Source: Microlunatus speluncae
Lineage (GTDB): Bacteria; Actinomycetota; Actinomycetes; Propionibacteriales; Propionibacteriaceae
Assembly: GCF_009299835.1 (NCBI RefSeq)
Contig: NZ_VKCZ01000020.1
Coordinates: 186,001-250,000 of the forward strand
Direction: 5' to 3'
DNA length: 64,000 bases
Positions within the stretch are counted from its first letter, which is position 1, and every line of letters begins with the position of its first letter. Both the position numbers and the translations under genes were made by a program. Below, piece after piece: positions 2,896 through 59,634 of this stretch. Below the pieces are notes generated by a model. It searched no databases, was not told where the DNA came from, and was given only the letters and a program-made list of their open reading frames with translations.

Positions 2896-3629
2896 GCCGC
2901 CAGCCAACCAGATGCGCCACCGGGCTCGACCATTGAGCGGGTGGTGTGTTGGTTCCGTTCCCTGAGCCTGTCGAAGGGGGGCAGACCACACTTCGCCGTG
3001 CTCCAGGGATTTCGGCCTGACGGCCGCGGAAAGACGCGCCAAAGAGACGGGTGGGGTTCGCGGTCGGCGGAGAATCGCGGCCGGGTGCCAGTTTCGATGC
3101 CGTTTCCGTGCGGCGGGAGCCGATTCCCGCCGCAAGGTTGCTCTGGGGTCATCGACTGTGACGTTCCCCGGCTTCAGATCGACGATCGGGCCGGGGAACG
3201 TCACAGTCGATGAACACCGAACCCCCGATTGACCTGCGAGGGCGCGGGCCCGGTGAATCCGACACGGGCCGCGGTCTGGCTTGCCCTTCGACAGGCTCAG
3301 GGAACGAACACGCGCCCGGCCGCTGTAGCCGGCCGACCGCAACAACCTGCCCGCCCCTTGGCGCGTCTTTCCGCGGCCGTCAGGCCGAAATCCGTGAGAA
3401 CGGCCGCGGTCCGGCTTGCCCTTCGACAGGCTCAGGGAACGAAATCCCCGCTCAGCTCACCCTCGTAACCAGGACGGACCCGCGCAGCCCCCGCCAGCCA
3501 CGTGCCACGGCGCCCTCCGGTGGATCCAGGGAAGCGAACGCTCCGGTCCGGTCGGCGGCGGACGACTCACCCGCGTCCGGACGCGGTTAGCCCGGGCGGG
3601 GGAGGTCCGGTGCGGCGGGTGGCGCGATC
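2896..3629. other. 734-base non-coding region rich in nested inverted repeats
   Basis: No convincing gene is seen. Outermost are copies of the CCCTGAGCCTGTCGAAGGG element in opposite orientation (2957-2978 versus 3284-3305 and 3419-3440). Inside these, 3009-3041 and 3359-3391 are a perfect 33-base inverted pair. Further in are a 10-base-arm hairpin (3109-3118 with 3125-3134) and a 22-base-arm hairpin (3150-3171 with 3191-3212). The stretch 3441-3629 appears unique and may hold the promoter of the next gene. Confidence 0.85.
3150..3212. repeat. long perfect hairpin, 22-base arms
   Basis: Arms 3150-3171 (starting CATCGACTGTGACGTTCCCC) and 3191-3212 are exact reverse complements separated by 19 bases. 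It lies at the centre of the larger nested inverted repeat and is not next to a gene end, so terminator function is doubtful. No second copy was noticed in the window. Confidence 0.85.
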
Positions 3630-30933: not shown

Positions 30934-33426
30934 ATGAGTGTTCCGTCCGCTCAGTCAGAGATCACCGCCGAACAGAACTACGTCGACACCATCTACGCCC
31001 GCCTCGACCACCTCCGCGCGGAGGCCGAGCGCCAGCTCACCAGCACCATCCGCGACTCCACCACCGAAACCGACCAGGGGGTACGGGAGCGGCAGCATCT
31101 CGCCGAACGCCTGGCCCAGCGCGCCGCCGGCCTGACCGCGGCCGAACGGGGCCTGGTGATCGGCCGCCTCGACACCGACGACGGTGACCGGCTCTATCTG
31201 GGCCGCACCGGCATCGCCGACGACAACCGCGATCCGATGTTGATCGACTGGCGGGCCCCGGTTGCCGCCGCCTTCTATCGGGCCACCCCGGCCGAGCGGC
31301 TCGGCATTCGGCTGCGCCGGCACATCCATCTCCGCAACCGGCAGGTGGTCGGGGTCGACGACGACGTCCTCGACTTCACCGGCGTCGACGGCGATGATCA
31401 ACTGACCGGCGAGGCCGCGCTGCTGAACGCGCTGCGGCAGGCCCGGACCGGCCGGATGGCCGACATCGTCGCCACCATCCAGGGCGAGCAGGACACGATC
31501 ATCCGCTCAGGCCTGTCCGGGATCCTCGTGGTGGAAGGAGGTCCGGGCACCGGCAAGACCGTGGTCGCCCTGCACCGCGCCGCGTACCTGCTCTACACCC
31601 ACCGGGATCGCCTGCAGGACAAGGGAATCCTGGTGATCGGCCCGAACCGTACCTTCCTCCGCTACGTCGAGCAGGTGCTGCCCGGCCTGGGTGAGACCGA
31701 CGTCGTGCTCAGCTCCGTCGGTGATCTCTACCCGCCGCTGCGGACCACGACGATCGATCCGCCGGAGACGGCGATGATCAAGGGCGATCCGCGGATGGCG
31801 GGCCTGCTCAGCGCCGCGGTCGCGGATTATCAGCGGGCGCCCGAGGGTGGCCTGCACGTCGTCGTCGGTGAGGACGAGCACGAGCTGGACGCGGACTTCT
31901 GCCGCGGCGTCCGGGACCGGGCCCGGGAACGGGCCGGCCACCTGCAGCTCACCCACAACCGGGTCCGGCCGTACGTCGTCGGCCTCCTGCTGGACGAGCT
32001 GGTCGGCCGCGAGATGGATCGGCTGGAGCGGATGATCGACGAGGTCGAGGTGCCCGACCTGATCGAGGGCGAGGAGGACAAGAGCCTCAAGGACATGCTC
32101 GACCCGGTCGGCACTCGGGCCCTGCTGGCCGCCTCGGACGGTTTCGCGCGAGCGGCCGATCAGGTGTGGCCCGAGCTCACCCCGGAGCGCGTCCTGACCG
32201 ATCTCTTCTCCGACGCTGAGCTGCGCCGGCGGGTCGGCGCCGACCTGACCGAGGCCGAACGCGCCGCCCTCGCCGATGACCCGACAGCGCCCAGCCGCTT
32301 CGAAGGGCAAGCCGGATCCGCGTCGGGTCCGTTCCCTGAGCCTGTCGAAGGGCAGGCCCGATCGACTTCGTCCCCTGAGCCTGTCGAAGGGCAGGCCCGA
32401 TTCACCTCCGAACCATCCCCCGACCACCGAGCTTGGACCGTCTCCGACGTACCCCTGCTCGACGAACTGGCCGAGCTCCTGGGCCCGGCCCAGGAGCTGC
32501 TCGACGCCGAAGCGGCCCACCGGCGGCGGACGGAGTCGATCCGGGAGACCGAGGGGCACGAGCTCGACCTGGCCGCCGAGGAGGCGGCCGAGCTGGCCCT
32601 GGAGTACGCCGACGAGGACTACGGCGAGATCCGGATCGAGGGCTCGGAGGTGCTGGCCCGCTACTACGACGCCGGCGTGATCGAACCGCTGGCCGACCGG
32701 GCCCGCCGGGACCGGGAGTGGGCCTACGGCCACGTGATCATCGACGAGGCCCAGGAGCTGTCGCCGATGGCCTGGCGGGTGCTCGCCCGCCGCTGTCCGA
32801 CCGGCTCGATGACCGCCGTGGGTGACCTCGCCCAGGCCTCGTCTCCGGACAGCCCGCATTCCTGGGCCGGCGCGCTCGATCCCGTGGCGGCCGGGCGGTG
32901 GCGGCGCGAGGCGCTGACCGTCAGCTATCGCTCCACCGGACCGATTCTGGAGTTCGCCGGCCGGATCCTGGCCGCGAGCGGCTCGGACGGCACGGTGCCG
33001 CGGGCCGCCCGGCCCGACGGGGACGAGCCGTGGACCAAGCCGACCACGGCCGAGGCGCTGGCCCGGGATCTGCCGGAACTGCTGACCGCGGAGCGCGACC
33101 TGCTCGGCGCCGGGATCGTTGCCGTGATCACGACGGCGGATCGGGTCGAGGCCTGCCGCGAGTTGGTCCGCACCGTCTGTCCGGAGGCGACCACCTTCGC
33201 CGAGAAGGGGTTTCTCGACGCCCCGGTCGCCGTGCTCACCCCGGAGGAGTCGAAGGGCCTGGAATTCGACGGCGTGATCATCGTCGCGCCGGAGGAGATC
33301 CTCGCCGCCGGCCGCCGCGGCGAGCATCCACCAGGGCCGCTTCGCGGCCACGCCGACCTCTACGTCGCCGCCACCCGCCCCACCCGCCGCCTAGGCCTGA
33401 TCCCCCTATCCGACTTCACCCTCTGA
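30934..33426 (+). CDS. helR: HelR/HelD-type RNA polymerase motor ATPase
   Basis: About 830 residues. UvrD-like superfamily 1 layout: an N-terminal helical arm (EQNYVDTIYARLDHLRAEAE), Walker A EGGPGTGKTVVALHRAAYLL near residue 204, a long insertion, Walker B HVIIDEAQELSPMAWR near 604, VGDLAQASS, SYRSTGPI and the late ESKGLEFDGVIIVAP, VAATRPTRRLGL. HelD/HelR proteins bind core RNA polymerase, release it from stalled complexes or drugs, and HelR protects it from rifamycins. It is longer than usual relatives, partly because of a repeat-derived stretch near residues 455-490. ATG 30934 has AGGAG 12 bases upstream. The symbol is by family resemblance; HelD is equally fitting. Confidence 0.88.
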   Translation: MSVPSAQSEITAEQNYVDTIYARLDHLRAEAERQLTSTIRDSTTETDQGVRERQHLAERLAQRAAGLTAAERGLVIGRLDTDDGDRLYLGRTGIADDNRDPMLIDWRAPVAAAFYRATPAERLGIRLRRHIHLRNRQVVGVDDDVLDFTGVDGDDQLTGEAALLNALRQARTGRMADIVATIQGEQDTIIRSGLSGILVVEGGPGTGKTVVALHRAAYLLYTHRDRLQDKGILVIGPNRTFLRYVEQVLPGLGETDVVLSSVGDLYPPLRTTTIDPPETAMIKGDPRMAGLLSAAVADYQRAPEGGLHVVVGEDEHELDADFCRGVRDRARERAGHLQLTHNRVRPYVVGLLLDELVGREMDRLERMIDEVEVPDLIEGEEDKSLKDMLDPVGTRALLAASDGFARAADQVWPELTPERVLTDLFSDAELRRRVGADLTEAERAALADDPTAPSRFEGQAGSASGPFPEPVEGQARSTSSPEPVEGQARFTSEPSPDHRAWTVSDVPLLDELAELLGPAQELLDAEAAHRRRTESIRETEGHELDLAAEEAAELALEYADEDYGEIRIEGSEVLARYYDAGVIEPLADRARRDREWAYGHVIIDEAQELSPMAWRVLARRCPTGSMTAVGDLAQASSPDSPHSWAGALDPVAAGRWRREALTVSYRSTGPILEFAGRILAASGSDGTVPRAARPDGDEPWTKPTTAEALARDLPELLTAERDLLGAGIVAVITTADRVEACRELVRTVCPEATTFAEKGFLDAPVAVLTPEESKGLEFDGVIIVAPEEILAAGRRGEHPPGPLRGHADLYVAATRPTRRLGLIPLSDFTL
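32296..32397. repeat. CCTGAGCCTGTCGAAGG repeat inserted in frame in the helR coding sequence
   Basis: Two clear copies (32331-32352 and 32371-32391) and a decayed one (32296-32313) of the dispersed element CCCTGAGCCTGTCGAAGGG-CA. They are read in one frame, as RFEGQA, PEPVEGQAR and PEPVEGQAR, with 45- and 39-base spacing that keeps the frame. The stretch is low in complexity and lies between ATPase-domain elements, most likely in a surface loop. Confidence 0.9.
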
Positions 33427-37128: not shown

Positions 37129-37238
37129 GTTCCCTGAGCCTGTCGAAGGGCAAGCAAGATCATCCAAGATCATTTCGATTGGCCCAGGTAACGAACAAGT
37201 CGTGCGATCCCTCGGCCCCTTCGACAGGCTCAGGGAAC
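37129..37238. repeat. inverted pair of CCCTGAGCCTGTCGAAGGG elements
   Basis: One element lies at 37129-37150 and another in opposite orientation at 37217-37238, 66 bases apart. They could form a long stem. They fill most of the 302-base space between the TIM-barrel gene and the end of the radical SAM gene, in which I see no other gene. Confidence 0.88.
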
Positions 37239-38886: not shown

Positions 38887-39508
38887 GCCCCGATCGTGCC
38901 ATGGCCGTGCGGTCTGTCCCTTAGCCCGCCGAAGTGCGGGCCGGGCCGCGCGCTTGTTCTTTTCCCCGAGCCTGACGAAGGGGAGACCAGCGGGTGGCGC
39001 GTCGACGCTCTGGTCGCACCATCGAGCGCCGCTGGATGACGAAAGGCGCGCCAGGGACGGGCGGGTTGGGCAGGATCGAGCCTCCACTGCCGACCGTCGG
39101 CTGGTTGCCGGAGTCGCCCTTCGCCCTTCGGCGCAGTTCGCTCACCGAGTGGACGCGTTGACCAGCCTCGCGGCAGAAACTCGCGGCCAAAGCGTCCACT
39201 CGCGTGCTTCGGAGACCCTCCCGGAGCTGCCGCCACCCGTACCGAACCGGAGGTAGGCGGGATCGGCTCCGTCTGACCGGCCCGCCGTCCTCGGCGCGTC
39301 CTTCCCATCCGGCGCACAAGCGCCGGAGGAGCGGGTTGGATCCGGTTCCCTGGCACAGTCCGACGAGTTGATCAGCACCCGTCATCTCCGTGTCGTAGCG
39401 GCCGTACGCCCCGGAACGTACCCGAAAGTCGCGATCCGGCGGACGACACACGCCGGCGCCAGGACGATGCTCGGGGGTGATCATCCGTCTGCGCTGGAAG
39501 GGGCCCAC
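38887..39508. other. non-coding region with degenerate repeat and palindrome
   Basis: No gene is supported in this 622-base stretch; open frames here lack conserved features. It contains a decayed copy of the CTGAGCCTGTCGAAGG element (38962-38983) and an inverted repeat CGAGTGGACGC (39146-39156) with GCGTCCACTCG (39192-39202). The last 100 bases probably contain the promoter of the next gene. Confidence 0.7.
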
Positions 39509-42348: not shown

Positions 42349-42391
42349 GCTCCCCGAGCCTGTCGAAGCATGTCCTGAGCCTGTCGAAGGG
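42349..42391. repeat. two tandem CTGAGCCTGTCGAAG elements
   Basis: Two direct copies, 42349-42368 (with a CCCCGAGCC variant) and 42372-42391, between the SGNH hydrolase start and the MFS transporter end. The pair is spaced by three bases. Same dispersed family as at 2957, 32331 and others. Confidence 0.88.
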
Positions 42392-44568: not shown

Positions 44569-44590
44569 GTTCCCTGAGCCCGTCGAAGGG
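44569..44590. repeat. CCTGAGCCCGTCGAAGGG element
   Basis: One copy of the dispersed family with a single change (CCC for CCT) in the 236-base space between map and the Nudix gene. The rest of this space holds the promoters of both divergent genes. Confidence 0.85.
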
Positions 44591-51608: not shown

Positions 51609-52079
51609 TCAGCAGGAGCCGTCGTACTCGCCGATGGCGGTGACCTTGGCGGCCGAGGCGGAGCCGGGGTCGAAGGTGTAGCCGAGCCATTCCCGGGCCA
51701 ACCGGCGGGCCAGCTCGATGCCGACGACACGTTGACCGAAGCAGAGCACCTGGGCGTCGTTGCTGAGCACGGAGCGTTCCACCGAGAACGAATCGTGCGC
51801 GGTCACGGCCCGGATCCCGGGGACCTTGTTGGCGCTGATCGCGACGCCGAGCCCGGTGCCGCAGACGAGCAGCGCCCGGTCGGCCTGGCCGTCGGCGATC
51901 AGCCGGGCCGCGGCGACGGCGACGTGCGGATAGGCGGTGTGCTCGTCCGCGCTCACCCCGACGTCGATCACCTCGGTGACCCGGTCGTCGCCGGCCAGGT
52001 CGGACTTCAGGATCTCCTTGTACTGCAGGCCGGCGTCGTCGCAGCCGACGACCACCCGCCAGGTCTGCTGGTCACTCAT
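51609..52079 (-). CDS. RpiB/LacA-family sugar-phosphate isomerase
   Basis: About 156 residues. The motif [18 protein letters not shown] at the start, [17 protein letters not shown], the catalytic Cys in [22 protein letters not shown], and [22 protein letters not shown] are RpiB marks. Because it is coupled to a dihydroxyacetone kinase-family gene (four-base overlap), a tetrulose-4-phosphate isomerase (DerI/EryI type) converting to D-erythrose 4-phosphate is more likely than ribose 5-phosphate isomerisation. It is last in the operon. Confidence 0.88.
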
Positions 52080-53818
52080 CTCAGTCCTTCCTCACGACTC
52101 CGGTAAAGCTCTCCCACCACGGTGACACAGCGCGCGAACGAGACCGCGCCCGCGTCCGGGGTGCCGACGCTGCGCTCGGCCAGCGGGCGGGCCCGGCCGA
52201 CCTTGGGCCGTAGTCCGGCGGTCCGCGCGGCCGCGTCGGTGGCGGCGACGGCACCGGCGGTCCAGGCGTCGAGCCAGCCGTCACCGCGGGCCACGCCGGC
52301 CTCGACGGTCTCGGTGAACGGTAGCCAGGCGTCGAGCATGGTCTTGTCGCCCGGTTCGGCGCCACCCAGCTCGATCAAGGCTTGGTACGAGGCGCGGACC
52401 GCGGCCGCCACCGTGCCGGCGTCCGGCGCCCCGAGGTCGCCCAGCCCGTCACCGAACGCGGTCAGCGCCGCACCCCAGAGGACGCCCGAGGTGCCGCCGG
52501 CCTTGGCGGCCCACTGCTCCCCGGCGGCGCGGAGTGCACTCCCGGCGCCGGCCCCGGCGGCGACCGCCGACCGCGCGGCCTCGCTCGCGGCGCTGGATCC
52601 CTTCACCATGCCGCGACCATGATCACCGTCTCCGGCGACGGCGTCGATCCGGCCGAGCTCCTCCTCGTCGGCGACCATCGCCTCGGCGATCGCCTCGATC
52701 GCCGTCGCGACCCCGCCGGCGATCACTCGGGACGCCTCGTCCGCGTCGCGCGGGTCCGGCCCGGGCGCCACGGCCGCGCCAGCGGCCTGCTCGGGGGTCC
52801 GCCTCGCGCCACCCGCTCCGGCGGCGATGCCGCGCCGGAAGGTGGGCGTGTCGGCCGGGGCGAGCCAGAGCCGCTCCAATTCCTCGTCCAGCCAGGTGAT
52901 CGTCAACGAGCAGCCGGCCATGTCGAGGCTGGTCACCAACTCGCCGACCTCCGGCCGGACCAGCTCGAAGCCGGCCTGCCGGAGCAGCCGCGCCGCGTCG
53001 CCCCAGAGCACGAACAGCTCCTCGTACTTGGTCCGGCCGAGCCCGTTCAAGATCACCGCGAGCCGCTTCGGCGCGCCGTCCGGGACCTCGGCCAGCACCC
53101 CGTCGACCAGCAGCTTGGCCAGGTCGGCGGCCAGGAATTGATCTTGCTCGTCGACGCCGGGCTCGCCGTGGATGCCGAGCCCGACGCCCATCCGGCCCTC
53201 CGGCACGGTGAACAGGGGATGATCGGCGCCGGGCAGGGTGCAGCCGTCGAACGCGACGCCCAGGGTCCGGGTGGCAGCGTTGCTCGCCTCGCCGACGCGG
53301 ACCACGTCGTCGAGGCCGTACCCCTCCTCGGCGGCGGCCGACATGATCTTGAAGACGGTGAAGTCACCGGCGATGCCGCGCCGCTTGGCGAGCTCGTCCG
53401 GTCCGGCGCTGGCGATGTCGTCGGTGATCGCGACGTAGCGGGCGTCGATCCCCTCGGACTGCAGCTGTTGGACGGCGAGGCCGAAGTTGAGCACGTCGCC
53501 GGCGTAGTTGCCGGTGGTCAAGATCACCCCGGCGTCGCCGTGCGCGGCCCGGGCCACCGAGGCCGCCTCGGAGGCCGAGGGTGAGGTGAAGACGTTGCCG
53601 ACCACGGCCCCGTCGGCGAAGCCCGGCCCGACCGTCCCGCAGAACGCCGGATAGTGCCCCGACCCGCCGCCGGTGACGACGGCGACCTTCCCCGGCCGGG
53701 TCGTCGTCGCCCGCACCACACCCCCGGGAACCCCGATCACATACTCGGCATTCGCATCCAGGAACCCCACCAGCATGTCCTCGGCAAACAACGCCGGATC
53801 ATTCCAAACCCTCGTCAT
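52076..53818 (-). CDS. dihydroxyacetone kinase-family kinase (DhaK-DhaL fusion), probable tetrulose kinase
   Basis: About 580 residues, with DhaK domain (1-330) and DhaL domain (about 370-570). His55 in [10 protein letters not shown] and the covalent substrate His217 in GLGIHGEPG correspond to those of DhaK. The ATP-binding DhaL part has [13 protein letters not shown] with the three Mg2+ Asp. In the tetritol pathway of Mycolicibacterium (DerK/LerK) such kinases phosphorylate erythrulose. It overlaps the isomerase gene. It needs no PEP:phosphotransferase partner because DhaL here carries its own ATP site. Confidence 0.9.
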
Positions 53819-53900: not shown

Positions 53901-55127
53901 TCAATGAATCCGTTCGCCCGACTCCGGATCGAACAGGTAGACCCGCCCGGGCGAGGCGGTCAGCCGGGCCGAGTCGCCCGAGGCGTACGTCTCCGCCGCC
54001 GGCGTCTGGACCACGATGTCGGCCGACCCGCCGGTCAGATCGAGGGTGGCCTGGCCGAACTCCATCAGGTGCTCGAAGTACTGCACCGTCACCGCAATCC
54101 CGGAGCCGGGCACTGTGGCTTGCCCTTCGACAGGCTCAGGGATCGTGGGGGAGTGGGCCGGATCAGGGATCGTGGGGGAGTGGGCCGGATCAGCGATCCT
54201 GGAAGAGTGGACCGGCTCCGGGACCGTTGGGGTCAGCCGGGCGTCCTGCGGCCGGATGCCGACCTTGACCCGATCGCCGTCCCGACCGCCCGTGGCGGCG
54301 ACGGCCAGTTCACCGTCGCCGATCCGGACCCGGCGTTGATCACCGTCGACGACCAGGGTGCCGTCGATCACGTTGATCTGCGGTTCGCCGACGAACTGCG
54401 CGACGAACAGGTTGGCCGGGTCGTCGAAGACCTCGTCCGGGGTGCCGAACTGCCGGATCACGCCGCCGTCCATCACCGCCAACCGGTCGGCCAGGCTCAG
54501 CGCCTCCACTTGATCATGAGTGACCACGATCGTGGTGTAGCCGAACTCGCGTTGCAGCAACTTCAACTCGCGGCGCACCCGGTCCCGGGCCGAGGCGTCC
54601 AGGTGCGACAGCGGCTCGTCCAGCAACAGCACCGGCGGATTGCGGACCAGCGCCCGGGCCAGGGCGACCCGCTGCTTCTGACCGCTGGACAGGGCGGACG
54701 GGCGCAGCCCGAGCAGGTCGGTCATCTCCAACCGGTGCGCGATGCCGTCGACCAGGCCGGCGGCGCCGGCGACCTTGCGCGCCTTGAGCCCGTACGCGAG
54801 GTTCTCCCGCACCGACAGCGGCGGATAGAGCGCGTACGACTCGAAGCCGACGCCGATGCCGCGCTTCCCGGGCGGCAGTTGGCTGATCTCCCGGTCGCCG
54901 ATCTTGATCGAGCCGCTGGTCACCGTCTCCAGCCCGGCGATCATCCGCAACGTGGTGGTCTTGCCGCAGCCGGACGGCCCGAGCAGGGCGATCAACTCGC
55001 CGGGCTCGATCTCCAGCTCGATCCCCTTCACGGCATGGAACTCGTGCCGGCCGCCGGGGTTGTAGACCTTGTTCAACTCGGTCAGGGTGAGGCTCTGCGC
55101 AACCTCGGTCGCCGTCGTCGTGGTCAT
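53901..55127 (-). CDS. ABC transporter ATP-binding protein, first of two (UgpC/GlpS-like)
   Basis: About 408 residues. Walker A GPSGCGKTT at 50-58, Q-loop position as FESYALYP with Glu96 in place of Gln, signature LSSGQKQR (146-153), Walker B LLLDEP (167-172), His204 in VVTHDQ. A TOBE domain follows, interrupted at about 303-335 by 27-base repeats and a CCTGAGCC element. Its pair is the next ATPase gene; together they probably energise the two permeases upstream. Overlap with that gene is four bases. Confidence 0.92.
   Translation of the reverse strand: MTTTTATEVAQSLTLTELNKVYNPGGRHEFHAVKGIELEIEPGELIALLGPSGCGKTTTLRMIAGLETVTSGSIKIGDREISQLPPGKRGIGVGFESYALYPPLSVRENLAYGLKARKVAGAAGLVDGIAHRLEMTDLLGLRPSALSSGQKQRVALARALVRNPPVLLLDEPLSHLDASARDRVRRELKLLQREFGYTTIVVTHDQVEALSLADRLAVMDGGVIRQFGTPDEVFDDPANLFVAQFVGEPQINVIDGTLVVDGDQRRVRIGDGELAVAATGGRDGDRVKVGIRPQDARLTPTVPEPVHSSRIADPAHSPTIPDPAHSPTIPEPVEGQATVPGSGIAVTVQYFEHLMEFGQATLDLTGGSADIVVQTPAAETYASGDSARLTASPGRVYLFDPESGERIH
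54123..54219. repeat. dispersed element plus 27-bp tandem repeat inside the ATPase gene
   Basis: 54123-54142 is one CCCTTCGACAGGCTCAGGGA element. It is followed by three tandem units of 27 bases (54139-54165, 54166-54192 and a divergent 54193-54219), each coding for nine residues such as DPAHSPTIP. In protein order: EPVHSSRIA, DPAHSPTIP, DPAHSPTIP, EPVEGQA. All in frame. Confidence 0.9.
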
Positions 55128-59572: not shown

Positions 59573-59634
59573 GTTCCCTGAGCTTGTCGAAGGGCAAGCC
59601 CGATCTGGTCTGCGCTTCGACAGGCTCAGCGAAC
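59573..59634. repeat. inverted pair of CTGAGC(C/T)TGTCGAAG elements within the operon
   Basis: 59573-59594 and, in reverse, 59614-59634 (with a GCTCAGCGAAC variant) lie between the dehydrogenase and binding protein genes, 20 bases apart. They can form a stem in the mRNA, which may set the ratio of the two gene products. Confidence 0.88.

Follow-up and report, generated by a model that had tools for sequence, protein, structure and literature searches.

An element of the REP/RPE kind, short, non-coding and resembling a hairpin, has, with a probability of about 0.72, spread between the genes of Microlunatus speluncae, and copies that survive in frame inside genes are tolerated as linkers in the encoded proteins. 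In this element, variable complementary outer arms would enclose a centre that changes far less and is close to TGAGCYTGTCGAA, usually with CGTT upstream in this genome, and transposition or copying would have spread it through intergenic space, mainly to places downstream of genes. Selection would remove most coding insertions, and the surviving in-gene copies would be those that are in frame, avoid the stop frame and occupy linker-tolerant sites, with the favoured frames reading as PEPVEGQ or, in the opposite orientation, as PSTGSGN, both of them loop-like. The inserted peptides are probably short and flexible, and we take them to be neutral or near-neutral.

The evidence starts from a single window, i.e., the whole 64,000-nucleotide stretch of DNA analyzed here. 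The initial annotation described CCCTGAGCCTGTCGAAGGG as a repeat lying mostly between genes, and a search allowing up to three mismatches bore this out, as 11 of 14 copies in the window are intergenic and three fall in genes (at 32334 and 32373 in helR and at 54123 in an ABC ATPase gene), with gene boundaries taken from our own codon-usage caller and not from a curated annotation. Eight of the 14 copies are exact, and 100 dinucleotide shuffles averaged 0.06 copies, none giving 14. The source genome as a whole (6.79 Mb, 21 contigs, estimated contamination 7.77) holds 364 exact copies and 640 copies of the core CTGAGCYTGTCGAAG, and the reversed CCCTGAGCCTGTCGAAGGG, used as a control, produced 0 copies in the same genome. 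Copies between convergent genes are enriched 1.9-fold and those between divergent genes occur at 0.37 of expectation. Distances to gene ends follow the same order (median 80 bp to 3' ends and 145 bp to 5' ends), a placement like that described for other REPs (PMC3733652).

Table 1 Genes, inserts and element copies located in the window
Feature	Position	Strand	Basis or remark
HelD/HelR-type RNA polymerase-associated helicase-like gene (helR), 830 aa	30934..33426	+	ORF, coding score, 6yxu, PF00580
Insert-bearing 54-codon stretch (LADDP...DHR)	32269..32430	+	alignment with homologues
Decayed element copy, 3' half only	32297..32319	+	bounds by our own reading
Exact element copy, PEPVEGQ frame	32334..32352	+	mismatch search
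Exact element copy, PEPVEGQ frame	32373..32391	+	mismatch search
ABC transporter ATPase, PF00005 and MalK-type OB domain	53901..55127	-	coding score, Pfam
45-codon stretch, C-terminal part of ABC ATPase	54102..54236	-	M. parietis alignment
Exact element copy, PEPVEGQ frame	54123..54141	-	mismatch search
Element copy	2960..2978	+	intergenic
Element copy	3284..3302	-	intergenic
Element copy	3419..3437	-	intergenic
Element copy	37132..37150	+	intergenic; inverted pair with 37217
Element copy	37217..37235	-	intergenic
Element copy	38964..38982	+	intergenic, 2 mismatches
Element copy	42352..42370	+	intergenic, 3 mismatches; 21 bp tandem with 42373 copy
Element copy	42373..42391	+	intergenic, 1 mismatch
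Element copy	44572..44590	+	intergenic, 1 mismatch
Element copy	59576..59594	+	intergenic, 1 mismatch; inverted pair with 59613
Element copy	59613..59631	-	intergenic, 2 mismatches, complementary to each other in the proposed stem

Reading frames were counted in 2,605,587 bases of the source genome, of which 1,690,480 (window included) had not been chosen for their copies. Copies with up to two mismatches numbered 392, with 308 intergenic, 62 in genes, 10 over a gene end and 12 at edges. Of the 228 copies in the part not chosen in this way, 36 were located in genes, against a coding fraction of 89% in the whole 2.6 Mb sample, and we infer that this depletion was caused by purifying selection. 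The 62 in-gene copies are read as PEPVEGQ (24), PSTGSGN (16), LSLSK (12), LRQAQ (6) and PFDRLR (4), and the stop-containing frame is used by none of them. When copies up to 400 bp apart in one gene were merged, 42 sites remained, 30 of which had at least 20 codons and a positive coding score on both sides. Twelve of these 30 mix frames, including three in DUF222 genes that may not be independent, and the other 18 are single-frame (9 PEPVEGQ, 6 PSTGSGN and 3 LRQAQ), which differs from equal use of five frames with a p of 0.002 (chi-square, small counts). PEPVEGQ and PSTGSGN together account for 15 of the 18 (p 0.0002, for a pair picked with the data in view). A Mur ligase gene carries a PEPVEGQ-frame site with two mismatches whose flanks both score strongly as coding, and this one could be native. 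A preference for one reading phase, as put forward in the initial annotation, is therefore retained only in part: all five open frames are used in the 2.6 Mb sample and two of them dominate. In both of these the first base of the 19-mer or its complement stands at codon position 3, so that one codon offset is preferred per orientation and not one phase overall. In our judgment the favoured peptides, rich in P, G, S, T and E, would suit loops.

Because both favoured frames share this codon offset, the counts do not tell selection on the peptide apart from an effect of target phase. The bias could thus stem from the insertion target itself, i.e., from a preferred sequence at a fixed codon position in high-GC genes, and the two frames with the common offset (same2 and opp2) do make up 22 of 29 single-frame sites. 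However, other offsets occur as well (same1 in 12 of 62 copies, opp1 in 6 of 62 and opp0 in 4 of 62), and no consistent target emerged in the few places aligned base by base between species (helR and four others, of which the intergenic one aligned poorly). We regard such an origin of the bias as possible, with the odds against it.

The same sites were also sorted by the kind of gene that carries them. A Pfam scan, which covered only the larger piece for two of the 30 genes, assigned five of the 30 good sites to HelD-, Lhr-, PriA-, UvrD-PDDEXK- and DnaE-type genes, and UvrD- and DEAD-type genes take three of the 30 sites against ~1.25% of coding length (our own sum over listed open-frame lengths; p 0.006). 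Since the genes were grouped afterwards and the stretches sampled were partly chosen for their copies, these figures do no more than suggest a preference of the element for DNA-transaction genes; PMC3733652 describes such a tendency in other REPs.

Read as a hairpin, the 19-mer pairs at its four outer positions; further in, GA faces GA and a single G-C pair follows, which leaves five bases for the loop. Changes among 228 non-exact copies of the source genome (up to three mismatches, no other filter) amount to 72, 75, 43, 54 and 41 at positions 1, 9, 10, 18 and 19, and to 0 to 14 at the other positions from 5 to 15, which makes the centre the least changed part. The centre still varies at places, with 43 of the 228 copies changed at the second pyrimidine and 14 at the next T but one. 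A similar pattern of change was found for 121 non-exact copies on viral contigs among the matches listed, where C or T was allowed at position 9. For analysis of the arms, 371 copies of the source genome were used together with viral copies, and in both sets the centre, GAGCYTGTCGA, was fixed by the search itself. CGTT stands directly upstream of 237 of the 371 own copies, and CAAGCC or CAGGCC downstream of 106. The viral arms covary (TGC/GCA, TGG/CCA, GGC/GCC, TCC/GGA and CCA/TGG): in 54 distinct viral hairpins among the matches listed, 171 of 216 cells are Watson-Crick against 104 in shuffles (sd 5.7, maximum 118; n=500), a count that leaves out copies equal to the searched pattern and that is not a probability, as the viral contigs may be related to one another. 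For all 371 copies of the source genome 1286 of 1484 cells are Watson-Crick against 1257 in shuffles (maximum 1275), and in the 70 distinct own copies the arms covary no more than in shuffles (170 of 280 cells, shuffles 163; sd 5.4, maximum 181). Folding energies gave no support for a stable hairpin (z -0.40 to +0.24). From arms that are variable yet complementary in the viral contigs, the repeat is probably a hairpin, with folding energies unsupportive, and the hairpin may be the form that is recognised. No Rfam RNA family matched anywhere in the window at gathering scores, and relaxed limits at 32200-32500 returned four chance-level matches (e.g., the Caulobacter sRNA CC3552 at 12.6 bits against the 50 needed).

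The distribution of the element was surveyed beyond the source genome. Its exact 19-mer is present in 14 of 20 Microlunatus genomes (source genome included) at 8 to 364 copies and absent from six, and M. parietis, the closest named relative found, has 101 exact copies. Across a class sample of 296 genomes a core match occurs in 34 and none in 262, and at least 28 core copies are reached in only five, the source genome among them. The full 19-mer was also found on plasmids of Sphingobium, Sphingomonas, Moraxella and Comamonas, at E-values of 0.1 to 1 that reflect the short query, and the best plasmid match, to a Microbacterium plasmid, has 82% identity over 86% of the query. Viral contigs, too, contain the 19-mer with C or T at the loop, in at least 120 stretches. 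Taken on these sequence matches, the element family is patchy and, by the plasmid matches, crosses phyla.

This distribution also bears on a different explanation, in which the repeat is a functional site under selection, such as a binding site or a signal like those for DNA uptake; mutation would create it, and some genes would tolerate it in the frame that does least harm. Such a site would agree with the conserved centre and with the position of copies nearer to gene 3' ends, but it is difficult to reconcile with copy numbers between 0 and 364 within one genus, with the lack of any core match in most of the class sample, and with the four genes compared below, which differ by whole in-frame inserts and not by point changes. 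We therefore consider a selected site improbable, and the dispersing hairpin remains the preferred reading for the comparisons that follow.

HelR matches HelD (6yxu) with an E-value of 1.1e-129 over query residues 6-436, 497-729 and 762-823, and its homology extends over both the NTPase and the HelD-specific regions, as in the HelD class of M. smegmatis. As initially annotated, helR carries two clean copies and a decayed one that is visible in the sequence at ~32297-32319, the copies are spaced by 45 and 39 bases, and they are translated as PEPVEGQA. The frame-keeping spacing is real in helR and is weak evidence on its own, being common between genes too: 32 of 51 intergenic same-orientation pairs less than 150 bp apart are spaced by a multiple of three (exactly 21 bp in 21 cases), and a spacing of 22 bp, which does not keep the frame, is found in several in-gene clusters. 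More informative is the comparison with relatives. Where the window encodes 54 residues before AWT, M. parietis HelR (74-79% identity) has nine codons, LTRPEPVEE, and at the DNA level LTRPEPVEEPWT is a single element copy with one mismatch at the same site and in the same frame. Eight other aligned HelD-type homologues (38-57% identity) have seven residues there and no element copy, one of these insert-free homologues belonging to a Microlunatus genome with no exact copies, and the PEPVEGQ insert is thus absent from all eight. Most likely, judging from these alignments, the helR insertion was in place before M. parietis and the lineage of the window diverged, and the latter has expanded its copies since; multiplication in tandem would account for the 45 more residues than in M. 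parietis.

The insert site maps between residues 419 and 427 of M. smegmatis HelD, whose clamp-opening domain spans 261-447 according to PMC7749160. In an AlphaFold model of HelR, itself weak overall (mean pLDDT 59.6, with six sequences in the alignment), approximately residues 450-500 are coil with the lowest pLDDT, about 25-40, and the flanks are better. On this model the insert most likely forms a disordered loop exposed at the surface of the clamp-opening domain. Four further HelR-query matches were located in the source genome (C1:521008, C4:123125, C19:59410 and C21:168228), and the HelR-like gene at C1:521008 has no such insert.

The copy in the ABC ATPase has the same frame and the same orientation relative to the coding strand as those in helR, in agreement with the initial annotation, and its insert is absent from M. 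parietis: 49 residues separate GIRPQDA from VTVQYFEHL in the window against 10 in the relative (net 39 more). Both inserts, together with the unused stop frame, uphold the view that an intergenic repeat has been inserted into coding sequence. Two genes elsewhere in the genome were compared with known structures. Its PEPCK has seven extra residues around PSTGSG relative to the PEPCK of 4r43, and in Lhr residues 201-260 (about 60), with the element near residue 246, have no counterpart in 7lhl, the next aligned stretch beginning at LQRIGLSAT. The DnaE alignment shown with 4jom stops before the element and is uninformative on that insert. Differences also run the other way, as one M. parietis gene junction holds a copy where the window is empty, and a copy with three mismatches, at ~44815 of the joined M. 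parietis stretch, lies inside the M. parietis orthologue of the window gene 52076-53791, which has none. In total the M. parietis stretch syntenic to the window contains three copies (up to three mismatches), and only the one in helR matches a window copy.

Two further explanations were weighed on these genes. In-gene copies might mark decaying genes or gene-calling errors, and 12 of the 42 in-gene sites do lie at gene ends or fail the flank test; however, the other 30 have coding signal on both sides, Pfam domains are kept in the PEPCK, LacZ, Lhr, DnaE-type and UvrD-type genes, and the alignment of PEPCK with 4r43 runs through 614 residues with no stop, so that decay or miscalling seems very unlikely as a general account. 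That the PEPVEGQ stretches are ancestral and owe their match with the repeat to chance or common ancestry, as PEPVE at the same place in M. parietis HelR could suggest, is already contradicted and barely credible, because that stretch is itself an element copy in a genome rich in the repeat, the eight other homologues lack it and the ABC insert is missing from M. parietis.

With these explanations set aside, the preferred reading of a spreading hairpin can be placed among known systems, for which PMC3733652 was the main source. In the wide sense the element has REP traits, being high in copy number and mainly extragenic, with in-frame intragenic copies at 30 sites in 2.6 Mb. It resembles the RPE (CGTC-1 and CGTC-4 REPs; Rickettsia), which are short dispersed palindromes found many times in frame within ORFs likely to encode functional proteins, and CGTC repeats have no dedicated transposase either (PMC3733652). 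RPE, however, come from a different phylum, and the CGTC tag (or TGTC, CCTC) is not characteristic of the element: CGTC precedes 13 of 371 own copies, and TGTC and CCTC are not among the eight commonest upstream tetranucleotides of these copies. The element also lacks the CGTC REP stem of 8-9 bp with AT pairs at the first and second positions (PMC3733652). GTAG REPs share with it a high copy number, inverted pairs and a location mainly between unidirectional or convergent genes, at a length of 20-40 bp, and their intragenic copies are recorded in uvr, rec, DnaE2 and helicase genes (PMC3733652). Here again the tag differs, as GTAG is not among the eight commonest upstream tetranucleotides of the 371 own copies and the complement of the element's other end (CAAGCC/CAGGCC) is not GTAG either. 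For the RAYT (Y1) transposase of GTAG REPs, no Y1_Tnp match was obtained in 26 genomes. Overall, the element works like a REP or RPE, yet fails the GTAG tag and transposase features and the CGTC tag and stem features.

A resident RAYT/Y1 transposase was searched for with PF01797, which was found in 0 of 20 Microlunatus genomes (source genome included) and in 0 of six other actinobacterial genomes with core copies (control, 5 of 14). REPtrons can be lost, according to PMC3733652, so that this absence is not final. A transposase-like gene framed by copies was sought as well (blastp, 1e-20, half the query, covering 38% of the genome), and the 13 of 2,344 called genes flanked within 400 bp on both sides share no family. 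In-frame REP insertion has itself been published before, including in helicase, recombination and DnaE2 genes (PMC3733652). The string 'actino' is absent from the main text of PMC3733652, and Microlunatus from the main text of PMC12306157. Literature searches returned no match to 14-16-base strings of the repeat, and among the matches listed for 11-base strings and two peptides no title concerned such a repeat.

A wider proposal, which we consider tentative and rather doubtful, is that TGAGCYTGTCGAA with variable complementary arms represents hairpins that move or are copied and form a superfamily of their own in more than one phylum, with a putative non-Y1 factor that moves or maintains them by recognising the centre, and with commonest in-gene readings (PEPVEGQ, PSTGSGN) that are harmless linkers and allow persistence in conserved genes. 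If so, that persistence would include several genes acting on DNA or RNA polymerase, and one factor recognising the hairpin centre would offer a handle on how short repeats spread without a transposase of their own. The present case is countable: short repeats reshape proteins in a high-GC actinobacterium, and a relative supplies both empty and filled sites. For this genome's predicted proteins, PEPVEGQ, LSLSKG and PSTGSGN stretches can be explained as repeat insertions and not as domains.

Composite arrangements of the element were observed in several places. Head-to-tail dimers with a period of 21 or 22 bp (GAAGCATGTCCTGAGCC) occur at 42352-42391 and elsewhere in the genome and are distinct from the single copies flanked by CGTT. 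The three DUF222 genes contain similar composite cassettes, in which two copies stand at a distance of 76-79 bp and keep fixed frames (PSTSSGNEH...). In the ABC ATPase, the insert at 54102-54236 contains, by eye, 27-bp tandem units ending in one element; these units share their start with the element and may be a second repeat type.
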